Position numbers and translations under genes: made by a program
IMG/VR virus record: IMGVR_UViG_3300025704_000105
Span: 1 to 24,630 of that record
Length of the DNA stretch: 24,630 nt
Source of the DNA: a virus
Strand: one strand, 5' to 3'
The notes under the pieces: generated by a model
What the model saw: only the letters and a program-made list of their open reading frames with translations
What the model was told of the DNA's origin: nothing
The model's database searches: none
Shown: positions 913 through 5,956 of the stretch, one piece after another
Layout of the letters: the number at the start of each line of letters is the position of its first letter
Numbering within the stretch: position 1 is the first letter of the stretch

Positions 913-2166
913 TTAGTACCCTGCGTAAGTATCTAAAAATTCAAATTCTTCTTCCACATAGTCCGAGGTGTAGGCTATGTTAGCCAACTGGTCTATGTAA
1001 GCGAGTGAGTCAATCAAGTCATCGTGTACAAGTTGATTGGGGAACTGGAATAGTTCATCTAGGAACTCTGTATTCCACGAACCCTTGTTAAGTGTAATCT
1101 TACCGTGTTCAAACCTACCCTGCAAAGCCCACACGATTCTATCGGTCTTCTTCTTGTTGCCGTGAGTTAGTTCCTCGATACGGAAGAACCTATCATTAGA
1201 CTTCATTAAGTCTGAGATGTATGGAAGTACAGCGTTCTTTAACGCTCCTTTCTCAATCCCGACAGATACTGGACGATAGTCCCGTACAGCTTCAAAGATT
1301 TTACGTGCAGTTTCTTCCACACCCCAACGACCATGAATGATGTCAGCAACGTACCAACCTTCTTCATTTGCTTTAACAACCGAGATAGCCGTTTGGTCAA
1401 GTCGTTTAGTTTTAGTTGTAACTTTTGCCACATCAGCAAACCCCGCCAAATCGACAGCAATATAATACTGACCACTAGTGGGTTCTTCTTCAGAAAACTT
1501 AATGTAATCTTCTTTAAATAATTCACTGCCCTGTGCCTCGAACGATGCCATGAACTCCTGACGGAAACTAAATGCGGACATGGACTTCTTAGCCGCTTCA
1601 ATCTCTTCAGGGTCTAGTAGTGGATTATCGTAGCTTGTGAAGTGATAACCTACAAAGGTCTCGTCCTCTGCTACACAAGCATAGGTATATAAGTCATAGA
1701 AGTGATTACGTCCCATTGGCGTACCAATGAACAGTGCATCTCCCTTCTGGTCAGCTAGTGCAGGTCTAAGGATTTGCTCCCAGACCTCTGGCTTCATATC
1801 CGCATACTCATCCATAACGAGGAACTTAAGACTGACACCACGCATGGTTTCTGGTCTATCTGCACCCTTAAGTGCTATGGTTGCCCCGTTAACTAGCTTT
1901 ATTTGTAAGTTATTAACGTGACTAGATGCTATGACAGGATTGCCTATCTCCATCAATACCTGCCACATAATGTCCCTAGCCTGACCCTGTGTAGGTGCAA
2001 CGTAGAAGACATGACCCTTATCAGACTGTAAAGCCCTGATGATTAACATCCATGCGGCTAGACGGGACTTGCCTGTACGTCTACCTGCGGCTATGACCTT
2101 GAATCTAGTTGTGTCCTCAAAGACTTCCTGTTGCCACGGTAGGAGTGATACGTTAAGTTCAGTCAA
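913..2166 (-). CDS. terL: Terminase large subunit (TerL)
   Basis: This is the ATP-driven DNA packaging motor and headful/terminal nuclease, 417 aa. The N-terminal ATPase has Walker A GRRTGKS at residues 28-34, Walker B KFLVMDE at 114-120 with the catalytic Glu, and a motif III-like IGTPMGRNHFYD at 147-158. The C-terminal RNase H-like nuclease has the acidic triad positions D239 (YIAVDLAGFAD), E305 (VGIEKGA) and the cluster D382/D383/D386 (VHDDLIDSLAY). All key residues are present, so it should be active. The length is short but normal for podovirus and siphovirus TerL proteins. The start abuts the stop of the M15 peptidase gene (2167), and the portal follows at 911, so packaging genes form one leftward operon. 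Confidence 0.95.
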   Translation of the reverse strand: MTELNVSLLPWQQEVFEDTTRFKVIAAGRRTGKSRLAAWMLIIRALQSDKGHVFYVAPTQGQARDIMWQVLMEIGNPVIASSHVNNLQIKLVNGATIALKGADRPETMRGVSLKFLVMDEYADMKPEVWEQILRPALADQKGDALFIGTPMGRNHFYDLYTYACVAEDETFVGYHFTSYDNPLLDPEEIEAAKKSMSAFSFRQEFMASFEAQGSELFKEDYIKFSEEEPTSGQYYIAVDLAGFADVAKVTTKTKRLDQTAISVVKANEEGWYVADIIHGRWGVEETARKIFEAVRDYRPVSVGIEKGALKNAVLPYISDLMKSNDRFFRIEELTHGNKKKTDRIVWALQGRFEHGKITLNKGSWNTEFLDELFQFPNQLVHDDLIDSLAYIDQLANIAYTSDYVEEEFEFLDTYAGY

Positions 2167-2529
2167 CTAGTAAGTCCACATTACATAAGGGGTTGTATCG
2201 TCAGGACTGCGGATATCAACATGGACGAAGCCACGAGCAACTCCCACGCCTGTGAATCCAAGCGCGATAGCCTTCTCAACGATACGAAACCGTTGGTAGC
2301 CGTTAGTGACTTTAATATCCGCGGCAATGCCTTGTGCATGAGTTCCTGTTCCTGGTTTTGCTTTCTTAGCTTCAATGGGGTGTGTTTTATCTCTAAATCC
2401 TGACGTAATTACAAAGGGGAAACCACAGGCTTCTCTCAGCTTATCTAGCTTCTCAATGAACTCTTCTTTAATTTCGTTGTTGCCTGTGTACTGACAAGCA
2501 AACTCATCTCTATCAAAGTACTTAGCCAT
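2167..2529 (-). CDS. M15-family zinc peptidase (candidate endolysin)
   Basis: A 120-aa protein that matches the compact Peptidase_M15_3 pattern along its full length. It has FVITSGFRDKTHP at 39-51, the zinc-binding GTHAQGIAADI with H64 and D71, and FVHVDI with H103 as third ligand and D105. Members of this fold cleave peptide stems of peptidoglycan (L-Ala-D-Glu or D-Ala-D-Ala type). In phages they serve as endolysins, or as virion-associated murein hydrolases. There is no signal peptide or membrane segment, so a holin would be needed for export. It overlaps the upstream putative small terminase by 8 nt and abuts terL, so it is expressed with the packaging genes rather than in a separate lysis cassette. 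Lysis is the likely role; a virion-entry role is possible. Confidence 0.87.
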   Translation of the reverse strand: MAKYFDRDEFACQYTGNNEIKEEFIEKLDKLREACGFPFVITSGFRDKTHPIEAKKAKPGTGTHAQGIAADIKVTNGYQRFRIVEKAIALGFTGVGVARGFVHVDIRSPDDTTPYVMWTY

Positions 2530-2926
2530 CTATGATTTCTCCATCGTCTATGACATCCTCTGCATTACCTGACACCACTGTAGTCTCTCCTCCAACTCCA
2601 GTAATGTTTATCTGTATCGCTGACTTACCCGCGCCCTTAATGACATCATTCTCAAATACAGCTGTGGGTAATATCCTGTCCATGACTAACTTCCATGCCG
2701 CGGCTTGATTCTTATGGTCATCGTTAAGTGCCGCATCGAATATCGAGTCTAGGACTTTACGAGACTTGGGGGATGACAACATCCTGCCCTTGTACTCGTT
2801 AATGATAGCCGCATCACCCTTCGGGCGACCCCTTGACAAACCAGTAGTGCCTTTTTTTCTTGACACCATGTCTGACTTCTTAGGTCTGCCCCTTCTCCTT
2901 TTCGGAGTAGCTGTATCATTGTCCAT
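2522..2926 (-). CDS. Putative terminase small subunit with two AT-hook-like motifs
   Basis: A 134-aa basic N-terminal, acidic C-terminal protein. Residues 10-17 (RRRGRPKK) and 31-37 (SRGRPKG) are AT-hook-like cores, which bind the minor groove of AT-rich DNA. The middle (about 40-95) is predicted helical and ends in AAAWKLVMDRILPTAVFE, resembling the DUF5681-type/small-terminase helical segment. The C-terminus (about 105-134) looks like a beta strand followed by an acidic tail. Position as first gene of the lysin-terL-portal operon suggests the DNA-recognition subunit of packaging. The ATG at 2924-2926 follows an AAGGAGAA ribosome site at 2931-2938. A transcription regulator is the main alternative, since AT-hooks are not specific to terminases. 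It is the first gene after the perfect leftward promoter at 3063-3091. Confidence 0.55.
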   Translation of the reverse strand: MDNDTATPKRRRGRPKKSDMVSRKKGTTGLSRGRPKGDAAIINEYKGRMLSSPKSRKVLDSIFDAALNDDHKNQAAAWKLVMDRILPTAVFENDVIKGAGKSAIQINITGVGGETTVVSGNAEDVIDDGEIIDG

Positions 2927-2935
2927 TGTATTCTC

Positions 2936-2961
2936 CTTAAGTTATCTTAAGTATACTTAGG
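2936..2961. repeat. Phased CTTAAG-type repeat array 1
   Basis: CTTAAG at 2936-2941 and at 2946-2951 and the variant CTTAGG at 2956-2961 are spaced exactly 10 nt start to start, with 4-nt AT-rich spacers (TTAT, TATA). The core TAAGTATACTTA at 2948-2959 is a perfect 12-nt palindrome. The array lies in the 5' leader of the leftward operon, partly overlapping the ribosome site of the putative small terminase gene. It is probably a protein-binding array on one face of the helix. Confidence 0.65.
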
Positions 2962-3009
2962 GACGCGTTTAGTATTTAACTTTAAAGAATAATCATTAAA
3001 GAATAATAT

Positions 3010-3034
3010 CTAAGACTACTTAAGTACGCTTAAG
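3010..3034. repeat. Phased CTTAAG-type repeat array 2
   Basis: CTTAAG occurs at 3019-3024 and 3029-3034 with the spacer TACG, again a 10-nt period, preceded by a variant CTAAGA at 3010-3015. The array lies roughly 20 to 45 nt downstream of the expected start of transcription from the leftward promoter (-10 at 3063-3068), a usual place for an operator or roadblock. Confidence 0.6.
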
Positions 3035-3062
3035 GCTTTAAATTAATCTATACTATAAGTAT

Positions 3063-3091
3063 ATTATAGCATATTTACAGCTTAATGTCAA
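3063..3091 (-). promoter_or_regulatory. Perfect consensus sigma70 promoter driving packaging operon
   Basis: On the minus strand, TTGACA (plus-strand 3086-3091) and TATAAT (plus-strand 3063-3068) are separated by exactly 17 nt (3069-3085). Both hexamers match the bacterial consensus at all positions. Transcription would start near 3056 and run into the putative small terminase, M15 peptidase, terL and portal genes after a leader of about 130 nt that contains arrays 1 and 2. No other minus-strand promoter of comparable quality was noticed in the window, so this may feed much of the virion arm. Confidence 0.85.
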
Positions 3092-3156
3092 GTACTTTAT
3101 TATCTTATTTAGACCCGCGAGCCAACTTTTTAGTTCCATAACTAATAGTAATTAAA

Positions 3157-3186
3157 TTGTCCCTTTATATGAATATTTGTCATACT
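3157..3186 (+). promoter_or_regulatory. Weak rightward sigma70-like promoter candidate
   Basis: TTGTCC at 3157-3162 and CATACT at 3181-3186 are separated by 18 nt. The -10 is only 4/6 to consensus. Repeat array 3 starts at its -10 box, so a protein bound there could block it. No gene follows closely, so the call is tentative. Confidence 0.25.
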
Positions 3187-3210
3187 TAAGTATACATAAG
3201 AATACATAAG
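3185..3210. repeat. Phased CTTAAG-type repeat array 3
   Basis: CTTAAG at 3185-3190, then CATAAG at 3195-3200 and CATAAG at 3205-3210, with spacers TATA and AATA, keep the same 10-nt period as arrays 1 and 2. The first two units form a near-palindrome around TATA. Confidence 0.6.
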
Positions 3211-3310
3211 GAAAACAAATACTTAGGGGATAAACTTCGGTTAATTCTTTTTATTGAATATTGGCTTTTTTAGTATACATGCGGGTACACCTATGATTAA
3301 CTCAGGTCAG

Positions 3311-3328
3311 CCCGCCCCCCCGTCCCCC
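3311..3328. other. C-rich tract, potential G-quadruplex on minus strand
   Basis: Runs of 3, 7 and 5 C separated by single or double bases (3311-3313, 3315-3321, 3324-3328) stand out in AT-rich surroundings. The minus strand therefore has G5, G7 and G3 runs; the G7 run can supply two G3 tracts, enough for a four-tract quadruplex with one-base or two-base loops. Whether it forms or matters is unknown. Confidence 0.4.
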
Positions 3329-3567
3329 TTAAGCATATCCAAAAGGAGAACACAAGGGCTATGGGTGACTGGGAGACCTGAGATAGTCACAAGGAATCTT
3401 GACAACACAAGTGTGTGTGTGCTTAAGGATACCTACAGACCATACCTGAGAAAACACTTGACAGCCAATCCACTGTGTGATACTCGCGCGTGCGTACGTG
3501 TAATAAAGGAAGGGACAAGGTCATTACCTGTGTGCATATAGTTAATTGAAATCATGCATATAAATCA

Positions 3568-3596
3568 TTGTACAACATAGCAAACTTCTATATAAT
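3568..3596 (+). promoter_or_regulatory. Sigma70 promoter for the early operon
   Basis: TTGTAC at 3568-3573 (4/6) and a perfect TATAAT at 3591-3596 are separated by exactly 17 nt. Transcription would start near 3603, about 38 nt before the first early gene (ATG 3641), leaving room for its ribosome site (GGAGGGCG). This is the best rightward promoter upstream of the small-gene cluster and implies recognition by host RNA polymerase at entry. Confidence 0.8.
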
Positions 3597-3640
3597 GAAC
3601 GGCATACACAGACAAACAAGCCCAACGGAGGGCGGACATT

Positions 3641-4533: not shown

Positions 4534-4737
4534 ATGAATAACGAAAAACTAGCGGAAGAACTGAGAGGCAAGCACGTAGAGGATAGTTTGTGGGACGCGT
4601 CCTGTAGATTGGAGCAATTACGCAAGCGTTGCGGTGAGTCATTACAAGACGATGTTTTCGACTTTGAACAACGCCTCGACAACCTCCGCGAGGAGATAAA
4701 AGATTATGCCCTATGGTTGGGCGAGGAGGGCGAATAA
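4534..4737 (+). CDS. Small acidic helical early protein (67 aa)
   Basis: Not recognised. Two in-frame ATG codons exist, at 4528 and 4534. The ribosome site CGGAGG ends at 4526, one base before the first ATG but seven before the second, so 4534 is the likely start (67 aa, MNNEKLAEELRGKHVEDS). The sequence is all-helical and strongly charged, with heptad-like Leu spacing in the second half (FEQRLDNLREEIKDYALWL), suggesting a short coiled coil or dimer. It couples to the next gene through TAATG at 4735-4739. Confidence 0.7.
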   Translation: MNNEKLAEELRGKHVEDSLWDASCRLEQLRKRCGESLQDDVFDFEQRLDNLREEIKDYALWLGEEGE

Positions 4738-4913
4738 TGAAAGTATTTAATCTAGCGGAACAACTAGCAGACTTGTATCTGGAATGGTTCAACAACTATT
4801 CGACCGTGGAAAAGTTCGCAGAGCATTACCAAGTGACGGAAAAAGACGCACATCAGATGCTACGCAATGGCAGACGATACCATGAGGAACGAGTAGAGAG
4901 GTCTAAAAAATGA
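4737..4913 (+). CDS. Small helical early protein, possible HTH (58 aa)
   Basis: An upstream in-frame ATG at 4713 exists, but ATG 4737 sits in a TAATG overlap and follows GAGGAGGG at a good distance, so 58 aa is preferred. The sequence MKVFNLAEQLADLYLEWFNN leads into a segment (TVEKFAEHYQVTEKDAHQML) with the size and spacing of a helix-turn-helix: helix, a turn around HYQV, then the helix TEKDAHQMLRNG. The tail is basic (RRYHEERVERSKK). A DNA-binding role is plausible but not shown. Confidence 0.68.
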   Translation: MKVFNLAEQLADLYLEWFNNYSTVEKFAEHYQVTEKDAHQMLRNGRRYHEERVERSKK

Positions 4914-5581: not shown

Positions 5582-5783
5582 CACAAAAATATTTGACAGA
5601 CTATTGACAATTGAATTAAGGAATGGCGTAGGGATAGATTTGGAGTTTGTTGACTCTAAAGCAGTCTGGGTGTATAATCACCTGACAGAGGAACACAGCA
5701 CAATGCCCTTCGAGGGCGTAGTAATCCTGCTACCGTTCCTATCAATAACCTATGGCAGACCCTATACGGAGGCTGAACAATGA
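5574..5783 (+). CDS. Small early phage protein of unknown function (69 aa)
   Basis: A 69-aa mostly beta-stranded protein (MINTKIFDRLLTIELRNGVG, then IDLEFVDSKAVWVYNHL), with a short hydrophobic helix (VVILLPFLSITYG) near the C-terminus, too short and mixed to be a sure membrane segment. The ATG at 5574 lies inside the end of the preceding gene, with a moderate ribosome site (GCGAGAG). It ends in an ATGA overlap with the zinc-ribbon gene at 5780. I do not recognise the family. Confidence 0.68.
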   Translation: MINTKIFDRLLTIELRNGVGIDLEFVDSKAVWVYNHLTEEHSTMPFEGVVILLPFLSITYGRPYTEAEQ

Positions 5784-5956
5784 GCAGATGCAAAGCGTGT
5801 GACGTTATACTGACTGAAACAGAGCTACGAAGAAAAGACAGAGTGACCGATGAGTTTCTTGACCTGTGCTCCGAGTGTCATACGGCATCAGAGGAGGCGA
5901 TAGAAGAGAACTGGTCAACAGCGGAAGAACGTGATATAATAAGGAGTAATAATTAA
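5780..5956 (+). CDS. Small zinc-ribbon-like protein (58 aa)
   Basis: A 58-aa frame from ATG 5780 to TAA 5954-5956, starting in an ATGA overlap after ACGGAGG. The first CxxC pair is CKAC at 4-7 and the second is CSEC at 30-33, with LTETELRRKD between, a classic treble-clef/zinc-ribbon layout. The tail is a Glu-rich helix (EEAIEENWSTAEERD). Similar tiny two-CxxC proteins recur in T7-like marine phages. The DksA/TraR-like look (zinc finger plus acidic helix) makes an RNA polymerase contact thinkable, but the protein is too short to carry the coiled coil. It is the last gene of the small cluster. Confidence 0.7.
   Translation: MSRCKACDVILTETELRRKDRVTDEFLDLCSECHTASEEAIEENWSTAEERDIIRSNN

Follow-up and report, generated by a model that had tools for sequence, protein, structure and literature searches.

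Phased CTTAAG arrays in the 5' leader of a phage late operon as a putative bipartite operator

Gene layout and repeats of the window

The stretch of DNA analyzed here (the window) is an IMG/VR virus record of 24,630 bases. Leftward from position 2926 it carries, on the minus strand, a terS-like gene that is the first of the late operon (2522..2926), an endolysin-like gene of the Peptidase M15 family (2167..2529) and terL, encoding the large terminase subunit (913..2166; phrog_2 match, 5.6e-44). Rightward from 3641 run small early genes and genes for a gp2.5-like SSB, a primase-helicase, a DNA polymerase and a class II ribonucleotide reductase. The name of the primase comes from its translation and from the adjoining HTVC103P annotation. 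HTVC103P has a gene order identical to that of the window, and no CTTAAG array was seen in the terminal stretches of it that we examined. We call the gene at 2522..2926 terS from its position before terL. Its product bears two N-terminal AT-hook GRP motifs, matches AT_hook and DUF5681 (both under the Pfam cut-off) and aligns with small terminase genes of the DUF5681 type from other phages that bear the arrays. The TerS proteins of these phages had no match at E 1e-3 in 50,697 phage records, and a structure model of the TerS-like protein was poor (mean pLDDT of 57.9). A 69-aa early protein likewise had no match among phage records.

The leftward late and rightward early genes are separated by a 714-nt intergenic region (2927-3640). 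On its minus strand lies a perfect sigma70-type late promoter (TTGACA-N17-TATAAT, 3063..3091) with 12 of 12 consensus positions and an extended -10 TG, which reads toward terS, the peptidase gene and terL; relatives carry a promoter of similar kind. With a predicted start about 7 nt past the -10, the 5' leader of the late operon would span 2927..3056 on the minus strand and include two CTTAAG arrays, both conserved in relatives. Array 1 (CTTAAG-TACG-CTTAAG, 3019..3034, minus strand) is followed, ten nt nearer terS, by a weaker third unit that reads CTTAG on the minus strand. Array 2 (2936..2961) reads CTTAAG-TTAT-CTTAAG-TATA-CTTAGG on the plus strand. The element is read on the minus strand, where RNA polymerase would meet CCTAAG-TATA-CTTAAG-ATAA-CTTAAG, and its final unit overlaps the terS Shine-Dalgarno sequence (cTTAAGGAG). 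The order on the minus strand is promoter, array 1, array 2 and terS Shine-Dalgarno. An earlier note on this DNA had placed the arrays at divergent promoters; instead, the two conserved ones lie in DNA that should be transcribed as the leader of the leftward late promoter and that ends at the terS Shine-Dalgarno.

The same note had described three clusters of CTTAAG or close variants, phased at 10 nt with 4-nt AT-type spacers, and our counts partly confirm it. The third cluster (CTTAAG-TATA-CATAAG-AATA-CATAAG, 3185..3210, plus strand) lies about 95-120 bp upstream of the late -35. The 10-nt steps hold in all three, with five of the eight units exact; the other three have one mismatch (CTTAGG at 2956, CATAAG at 3195 and 3205). 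Every spacer is 4 nt long (TTAT and TATA; TACG; TATA and AATA), although TACG is not purely AT. The seven exact copies that had been reported (2936, 2946, 3019, 3029, 3185, 3328 and 3422, spanning 2936-3427) are all present, against 0.29 expected in the intergenic region, and none of 2000 shuffles reached seven. The other nine exact copies are spread over about 24 kb, with no two of them 10 nt apart; for the window as a whole, there is little excess (16 versus 10.6 expected). CTTAAG-N4-CTTAAG occurs twice in the window, compared to none in 300 whole-window shuffles and none in 5000 intergenic shuffles. Autocorrelation of CTTAAG with one mismatch allowed, a check akin to one that the note had proposed, gave a count of five at lag 10 in the intergenic region and at most one at each other lag from 6 to 19.

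Related phages and a neighboring origin-like element

A first set of relatives consisted of 80 viral loci selected by TerL, in 47 of which we located a leader between promoter and terS; the remaining 33 are unclassified. At least two phased pairs are present in 19 of these 47 leaders, four have one pair, seven have CTTAAG without a pair and 17 have none. We also scanned IMG/VR contigs for the motif of the double array, with no gene information used; the scan returned at least 120 stretches, a sample whose loci hold two exact pairs by construction. Among the matches listed, a terS-like reading frame lies downstream of the array pair in 112 of 120 stretches, and 106 of those 112 terS-type loci have a sigma70 promoter (at most two mismatches) no more than 130 bp upstream of the arrays. 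Two of the other eight listed stretches end beside the array, and the remaining six place it in other contexts, with no terS recognized. A second, DUF5681-like kind of terS, whose product has 25-28% identity to the window protein, is also array-bearing (L098, L102, L118, L141, L144, L149 and L151), so the arrays are present in two phage branches. In loci that were mainly array-selected, the promoter-leader stretch has about 1.9 CTTAAG per 100 bp, with densities mostly below 0.1 in other parts; the exceptions are one bin at +1200 and, immediately upstream of the promoter, a smaller rise. The earlier note had named conservation in related genomes and density in coding DNA as tests of its reading, and we find that the arrays are conserved and that coding density is not equal.

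Some copies that the note had counted lie outside the conserved element. The cluster at 3185 is whole in L001, the nearest relative by TerL, and reduced to CTTAAG alone in L002, and even L001 has mutations in the single copies at 3328 and 3422. Because 14 of 34 representatives hold CTTAAG 8-145 bp upstream of the -35 as well, sites can flank the promoter. In bacterial genome contigs, the double array was found in 12 stretches from five unrelated organisms. In two contigs of another kind (L129:8971-9057 and L163:3024-3110), CTTAAG units form a longer, near-perfect palindrome (CTTAAGTATACTTAAGTACTACTTAAG...), and no terS was recognized beside it. No description of the CTTAAG element was found in the open-access literature searched.

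Sister clades carry other repeats in the leader. GCAAGAG/CTCTTGC replaces the CTTAAG arrays in L051, L059, L060, L070 and L079, and in L051 and L059 GCAAGAG also adjoins the G-run described below. In these five and in L057, GCAAGAG/CTCTTGC forms inverted repeats, with strong predicted folds in some (z of -5.6 in L059 and -4.1 in L060). The leaders of L031 and L045 have CTTTAAAG repeats in place of the arrays. Leaders without CTTAAG showed no common 10-bp period in a lag analysis that left out L072 and L076; the lags were 8, 10, 11, 17 and 25, mainly in L018, L031 and L045.

Upstream of the late promoter, the window contains a conserved G-run (GGGGGACGGGGGGGCGGG, 3310..3328, minus strand) that is a candidate GC cluster of an origin. 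Bacterial oriC combines DnaA boxes, with the motif TTATCCACA, and a GC cluster. The 500 bp upstream of 89 unique leaders held at least three DnaA boxes (at most one mismatch) in 42 cases and the G-run in 75, compared to one and two, respectively, of 304 control windows. The commonest gaps between boxes were 11, 22, 21 and 10. In many relatives, exact DnaA boxes cluster in the stretch that separates the early genes from the late promoter. The usual position of boxes and G-run is 200-400 bp upstream of the late -35 (as in L143, L002 and L132); the boxes come before the G-run and, in many of the loci shown, before a stretch around TATACAAAAAAG. In many relatives, these helically phased DnaA boxes and G-run look like an oriC-like origin, and the boxes suggest the use of host DnaA. 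The window keeps the G-run and has no recognizable DnaA box; the minimum of its cumulative GC skew falls in this region. The G-run is inverted, as a C-run, in the clade of L040 and L119. Five loci without DnaA boxes (L059, L070, L057, L118 and L031) have, by eye, other repeats in the same place, such as TGCCAACT in L059 and L070, as if initiator sites had been swapped between genomes.

Spacing of the hexamers and competing explanations

Identical leaders were collapsed from 151 to 111 unique ones, and leaders of 60-260 nt supplied 47 representatives with less than 85% identity. Across the 111 unique leaders, most of which were motif-chosen, one CTTAAG unit follows another at a short gap in 173 cases; the gap is 10 nt in 168 of them and 9 nt in the other five. 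The 47 TerL-selected leaders, 30 of them with CTTAAG, were not motif-chosen and gave 37 short gaps of 10 and five of 9; in these leaders, the places 10 nt from a CTTAAG hold an exact copy in 74 of 198 cases and a one-mismatch copy in 19. Where copies carry one or two mismatches (n = 55), the third and fifth bases vary most (25 and 21) and the first C less (11). The 4-nt spacers are variable, at 0.5-1.0 bit in 23 representatives with less than 85% identity, a set made up solely of two-pair leaders in which the 100% hexamers follow from selection. The same 23 divergent leaders prefer TATA or TATC as spacers, and on the inner side of an array a weaker third unit (such as CCTAAG, CTTTAA or CTAAAG) often follows after one more 10-nt step. 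The two arrays are direct copies, with the second lying 58-83 bp beyond the first. Helical phasing of the array-to-array distances was not significant, so a rigid loop is not indicated. When the spacers of the two arrays are compared directly, 59 of 92 positions match (44.0 when shuffled, with none of 5000 shuffles reaching the observed value), which is what a binding site present in two copies should give, although direct matching might instead reflect duplication. As complements they do not match (39 versus 42.4 expected).

Because of the 10-bp spacing, the variable spacers and the direct rather than complementary spacer copies, the pattern argues for a protein site at the level of DNA and not for an RNA stem. 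The phasing (168 of 173 gaps; 37 of 10 versus five of 9) and the variable spacers also fit the proposal of the earlier note that a protein binds one face of the DNA cooperatively, and we infer such binding here. Were the leader instead to act as RNA, the two arrays would pair in a long hairpin affecting stability, translation or antitermination. The arms can pair, inverted-repeat scores exceed those of shuffles in many leaders, and the window's last unit overlaps the Shine-Dalgarno. Some leaders also fold well relative to shuffles, both without CTTAAG (L018, L019, L031, L045, L059 and L060, z of -3.6 to -5.6) and with it (L100, -7.0; L184, -5.3; L144, -4.9; L127, -4.1; L027, -4.0). However, inverted repeats in DNA fold well as RNA anyway, the window itself gives a z of -0.75 for a 156-nt stretch or -1.9 for the leader alone, and the array leaders L040 (-0.65) and L042 (-0.74) are near zero. 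One-sided changes in the arms produce A.C 527 times versus G.U 349 times, and compensatory changes are few (175), both counts being from sequence pairs that are not independent. This substitution pattern, together with the orientation of the spacers, led us to reject the hairpin, and we consider a function of the leader as RNA very improbable. Rfam gave no matches at the gathering score for 15 sources. A protein reading that names its binder, and that we therefore scored apart from the general operator of which it is a sub-case, has a host response regulator of the OmpR/PhoB family, PmrA/QseB type, binding the arrays. One report (PMC3973317) gives CTTAAG, CTTAAT and CCTAAG among PmrA half-sites, arranged head to tail, and describes cooperative binding at a box with 4-bp spacing (TTTAAT, TTTAAG); the phage arrays likewise hold CTTAAG/CCTAAG half-sites in tandem. 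The earlier note had known of no regulator family for this site, which that report qualifies (PMC3973317), but the bacteria that we sampled favor an 11-bp rather than a 10-bp step. In 143 genomes from the class of L206 (Pseudomonas lundensis), to which the phage host may not belong, 11-bp CTTAAG pairs are enriched (95 matches in 37 genomes versus 22 for a reversed control pattern), whereas 10-bp pairs are not (23 in 16 genomes, seven of them in one tandem repeat, versus 37 for the control). Frequent bacterial spacers include GTTTC, GAAAG and CTTTC, compared to TATA and TATC in the phages. The spacing enriched in this one bacterial class is an 11-bp period with a 5-bp spacer, where the phage arrays have 10 bp, and a PmrA-type binder seems to us the least probable of the readings discussed here. 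Nine of the bacterial genomes, G104, G118, G140 and G089 among them, are enriched in CTTAAG-N5-CTTAAG at 4-12 per genome (control, 0), and these pairs are perhaps a PmrA/QseB-like regulon.

Two further readings tie the arrays to neighboring functions. They could belong to the replication origin, as phased iterons or as an unwinding element used with host DnaA, and the earlier note had offered an initiator at an origin as one option. In favor of this are the DnaA boxes (42 of 89 leaders with at least three) and the G-run (75 of 89), nearly absent from controls (1 and 2 of 304), and the GC-skew minimum of the window. The arrays themselves, however, are on the opposite side of the promoter from the boxes and G-run, which lie mostly 200-400 bp upstream of the -35, and they track the promoter and terS; the window, moreover, lacks a recognizable DnaA box. 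We doubt that they are part of the origin. The main rival to the operator reading given below, somewhat more plausible if still unlikely, is that they form a terminase recognition site (pac or cosB-like), at which TerS would bind the phased sites on concatemers, start packaging and perhaps repress its own operon. The arrays lie directly upstream of terS in the 112 of 120 listed scan matches and, among 25 mostly partial genomes searched as whole records, 13 of the 15 that bear arrays have exactly two pairs, that is, one place per record; the exceptions have three (G006) and five (G022). Both kinds of TerS have basic GRP/GNP N-termini of the AT-hook type, helically phased sites suit a DNA-wrapping ring, and the ends of the T7 genome carry CCTAAAG repeats. 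Yet the arrays are not present wherever this type of TerS occurs: 17 of the 47 TerL-selected leaders are without CTTAAG and the AT-hooks are shared. The same family, AT-hooks included, is found in L059 and L060, whose leaders lack CTTAAG, and the family also occurs in L078 and L080, which have almost no leader. Such genomes weaken the case for the AT-hooks of TerS as the sole source of specificity. Additionally, weaker units keep the outer C of the hexamer better than the third and fifth bases, and AT-hooks would not need a conserved outer C. The 83 contig ends are scattered; eight of them, a mild excess, fall close to the G-run at 222-304 bp upstream of the -35, and no fixed genome end was seen at the arrays.

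A putative operator and its relation to known systems

With moderate confidence, we favor the explanation that the two CTTAAG arrays are a putative bipartite operator, placed in the 5' leader of the late promoter and controlling late transcription. Each array would offer two, sometimes three, head-to-tail hexamers to an oligomerizing DNA-binding protein, whose subunits would sit side by side on one face of the DNA because the hexamers are exactly one helical turn apart. Once bound, such a protein would act as a roadblock at the beginning of the late transcript (terS, the peptidase gene, terL and probably structural genes beyond) or would loop it, and late transcription would be timed or limited in this way. 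Displacement of the protein, or its titration by replicated phage DNA, could then turn the late genes on. Such an operator calls for conserved sites that keep a fixed helical spacing next to a promoter, as is the case here, and the arrays fit an accessory operator because they are optional (the 17 of 47 leaders without CTTAAG) while promoter and TerS are shared. Standing against it are the several CTTAAG leaders that fold better than shuffles as RNA (L100, L184 and L144) and the early genes surveyed, none of which tracks the arrays.

Among the early products, a winged-helix-like (wHTH) protein of 66 aa and LYLDWFNNFLTVERFAEYYG type (4713-4913; HTH_45, E 0.0034, under the Pfam cut-off) was the HTH candidate for a binder. 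A homolog (L230:1178-1321) weakly matches the Cox-like excisionase/repressor PHROG 575 (phrog_575, E 4e-4). HMM search found the wHTH in 16 of the 69 loci with two pairs and in 2 of the 12 that lack CTTAAG; of 47 unique two-pair leaders that have at least 2,500 bp of early side, 10 have it. Some of the early regions surveyed are truncated, and several loci represent one contig twice. This pattern of presence and absence led us to reject the Cox-like wHTH as a general binder. All 31 long array-bearing early regions, which include L118, L141 and L188 with the second kind of TerS, encode a C4 zinc-ribbon-like product (5780-5956) and SSB; in long early regions without CTTAAG, the zinc-ribbon-like product is present in four of four and SSB in one of four. 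A weak test of gene co-occurrence over 22 partial contigs and 36 early regions, just four of them long regions without CTTAAG, gave no gene specific to the arrays.

A wider model, which we put forward as a speculative and improbable whole, would make the divergent region a control hub. In it, an oriC-like origin dependent on host DnaA would lie beside a single strong late promoter, whose leader would hold an exchangeable phased protein array, CTTAAG here and other repeats in sister clades. A single bound protein would keep late transcription silent until it is diluted or stripped away by replication starting at the neighboring origin. If this hub were real, late expression would be coupled to replication with no need for an RNA polymerase or sigma factor from the phage. 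The conserved, easily recognized array at the start of the terminase and late operon can also serve as bait for finding the regulator and, in contigs of uncultured phages, as a marker of late promoters and probable origins.

Several known systems resemble parts of this arrangement. Operators of the P2 Cox and Apl type are direct repeats about one helical turn apart that are bound by a small oligomerizing wHTH, with TTAAAG(G/C)NCA as the P2 Cox box. The phage arrays share the direct repeats and the one-turn step, but the window's own wHTH gene (4713-4913) was found in just the 16 of 69 two-pair loci. The R sites of lambda cosB and the pac boxes of SPP1 are TerS-binding repeats just upstream of or within terS. 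They are alike in being repeats beside terS, whereas the CTTAAG arrays are missing from genomes with the same type of TerS. Relatives of the window resemble bacterial oriC in having phased TTATCCACA boxes and then a G-run, from which the CTTAAG arrays are a separate element, and DnaA boxes were not found in the window. The short repeats at the ends of T7, a podophage, are similar hexamer-like units in arrays, near early promoters and genome ends. Their unit is CCTAAAG and their commonest step 13 bp (175/188, 213/226/239 and 293/306), in or next to the terminal repeat, in contrast to CTTAAG at 10 bp in the terS leader, and we rejected a T7-type terminal repeat on these grounds. The PmrA box shares head-to-tail CTTAAG/CCTAAG hexamers near a promoter and a variable spacer with the phage arrays (PMC3973317). 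The verified PmrA box has a 5-bp spacer, whereas the phage arrays are phased at 10 bp, doubled, placed downstream of the promoter and built with TATA- or TATC-like spacers.
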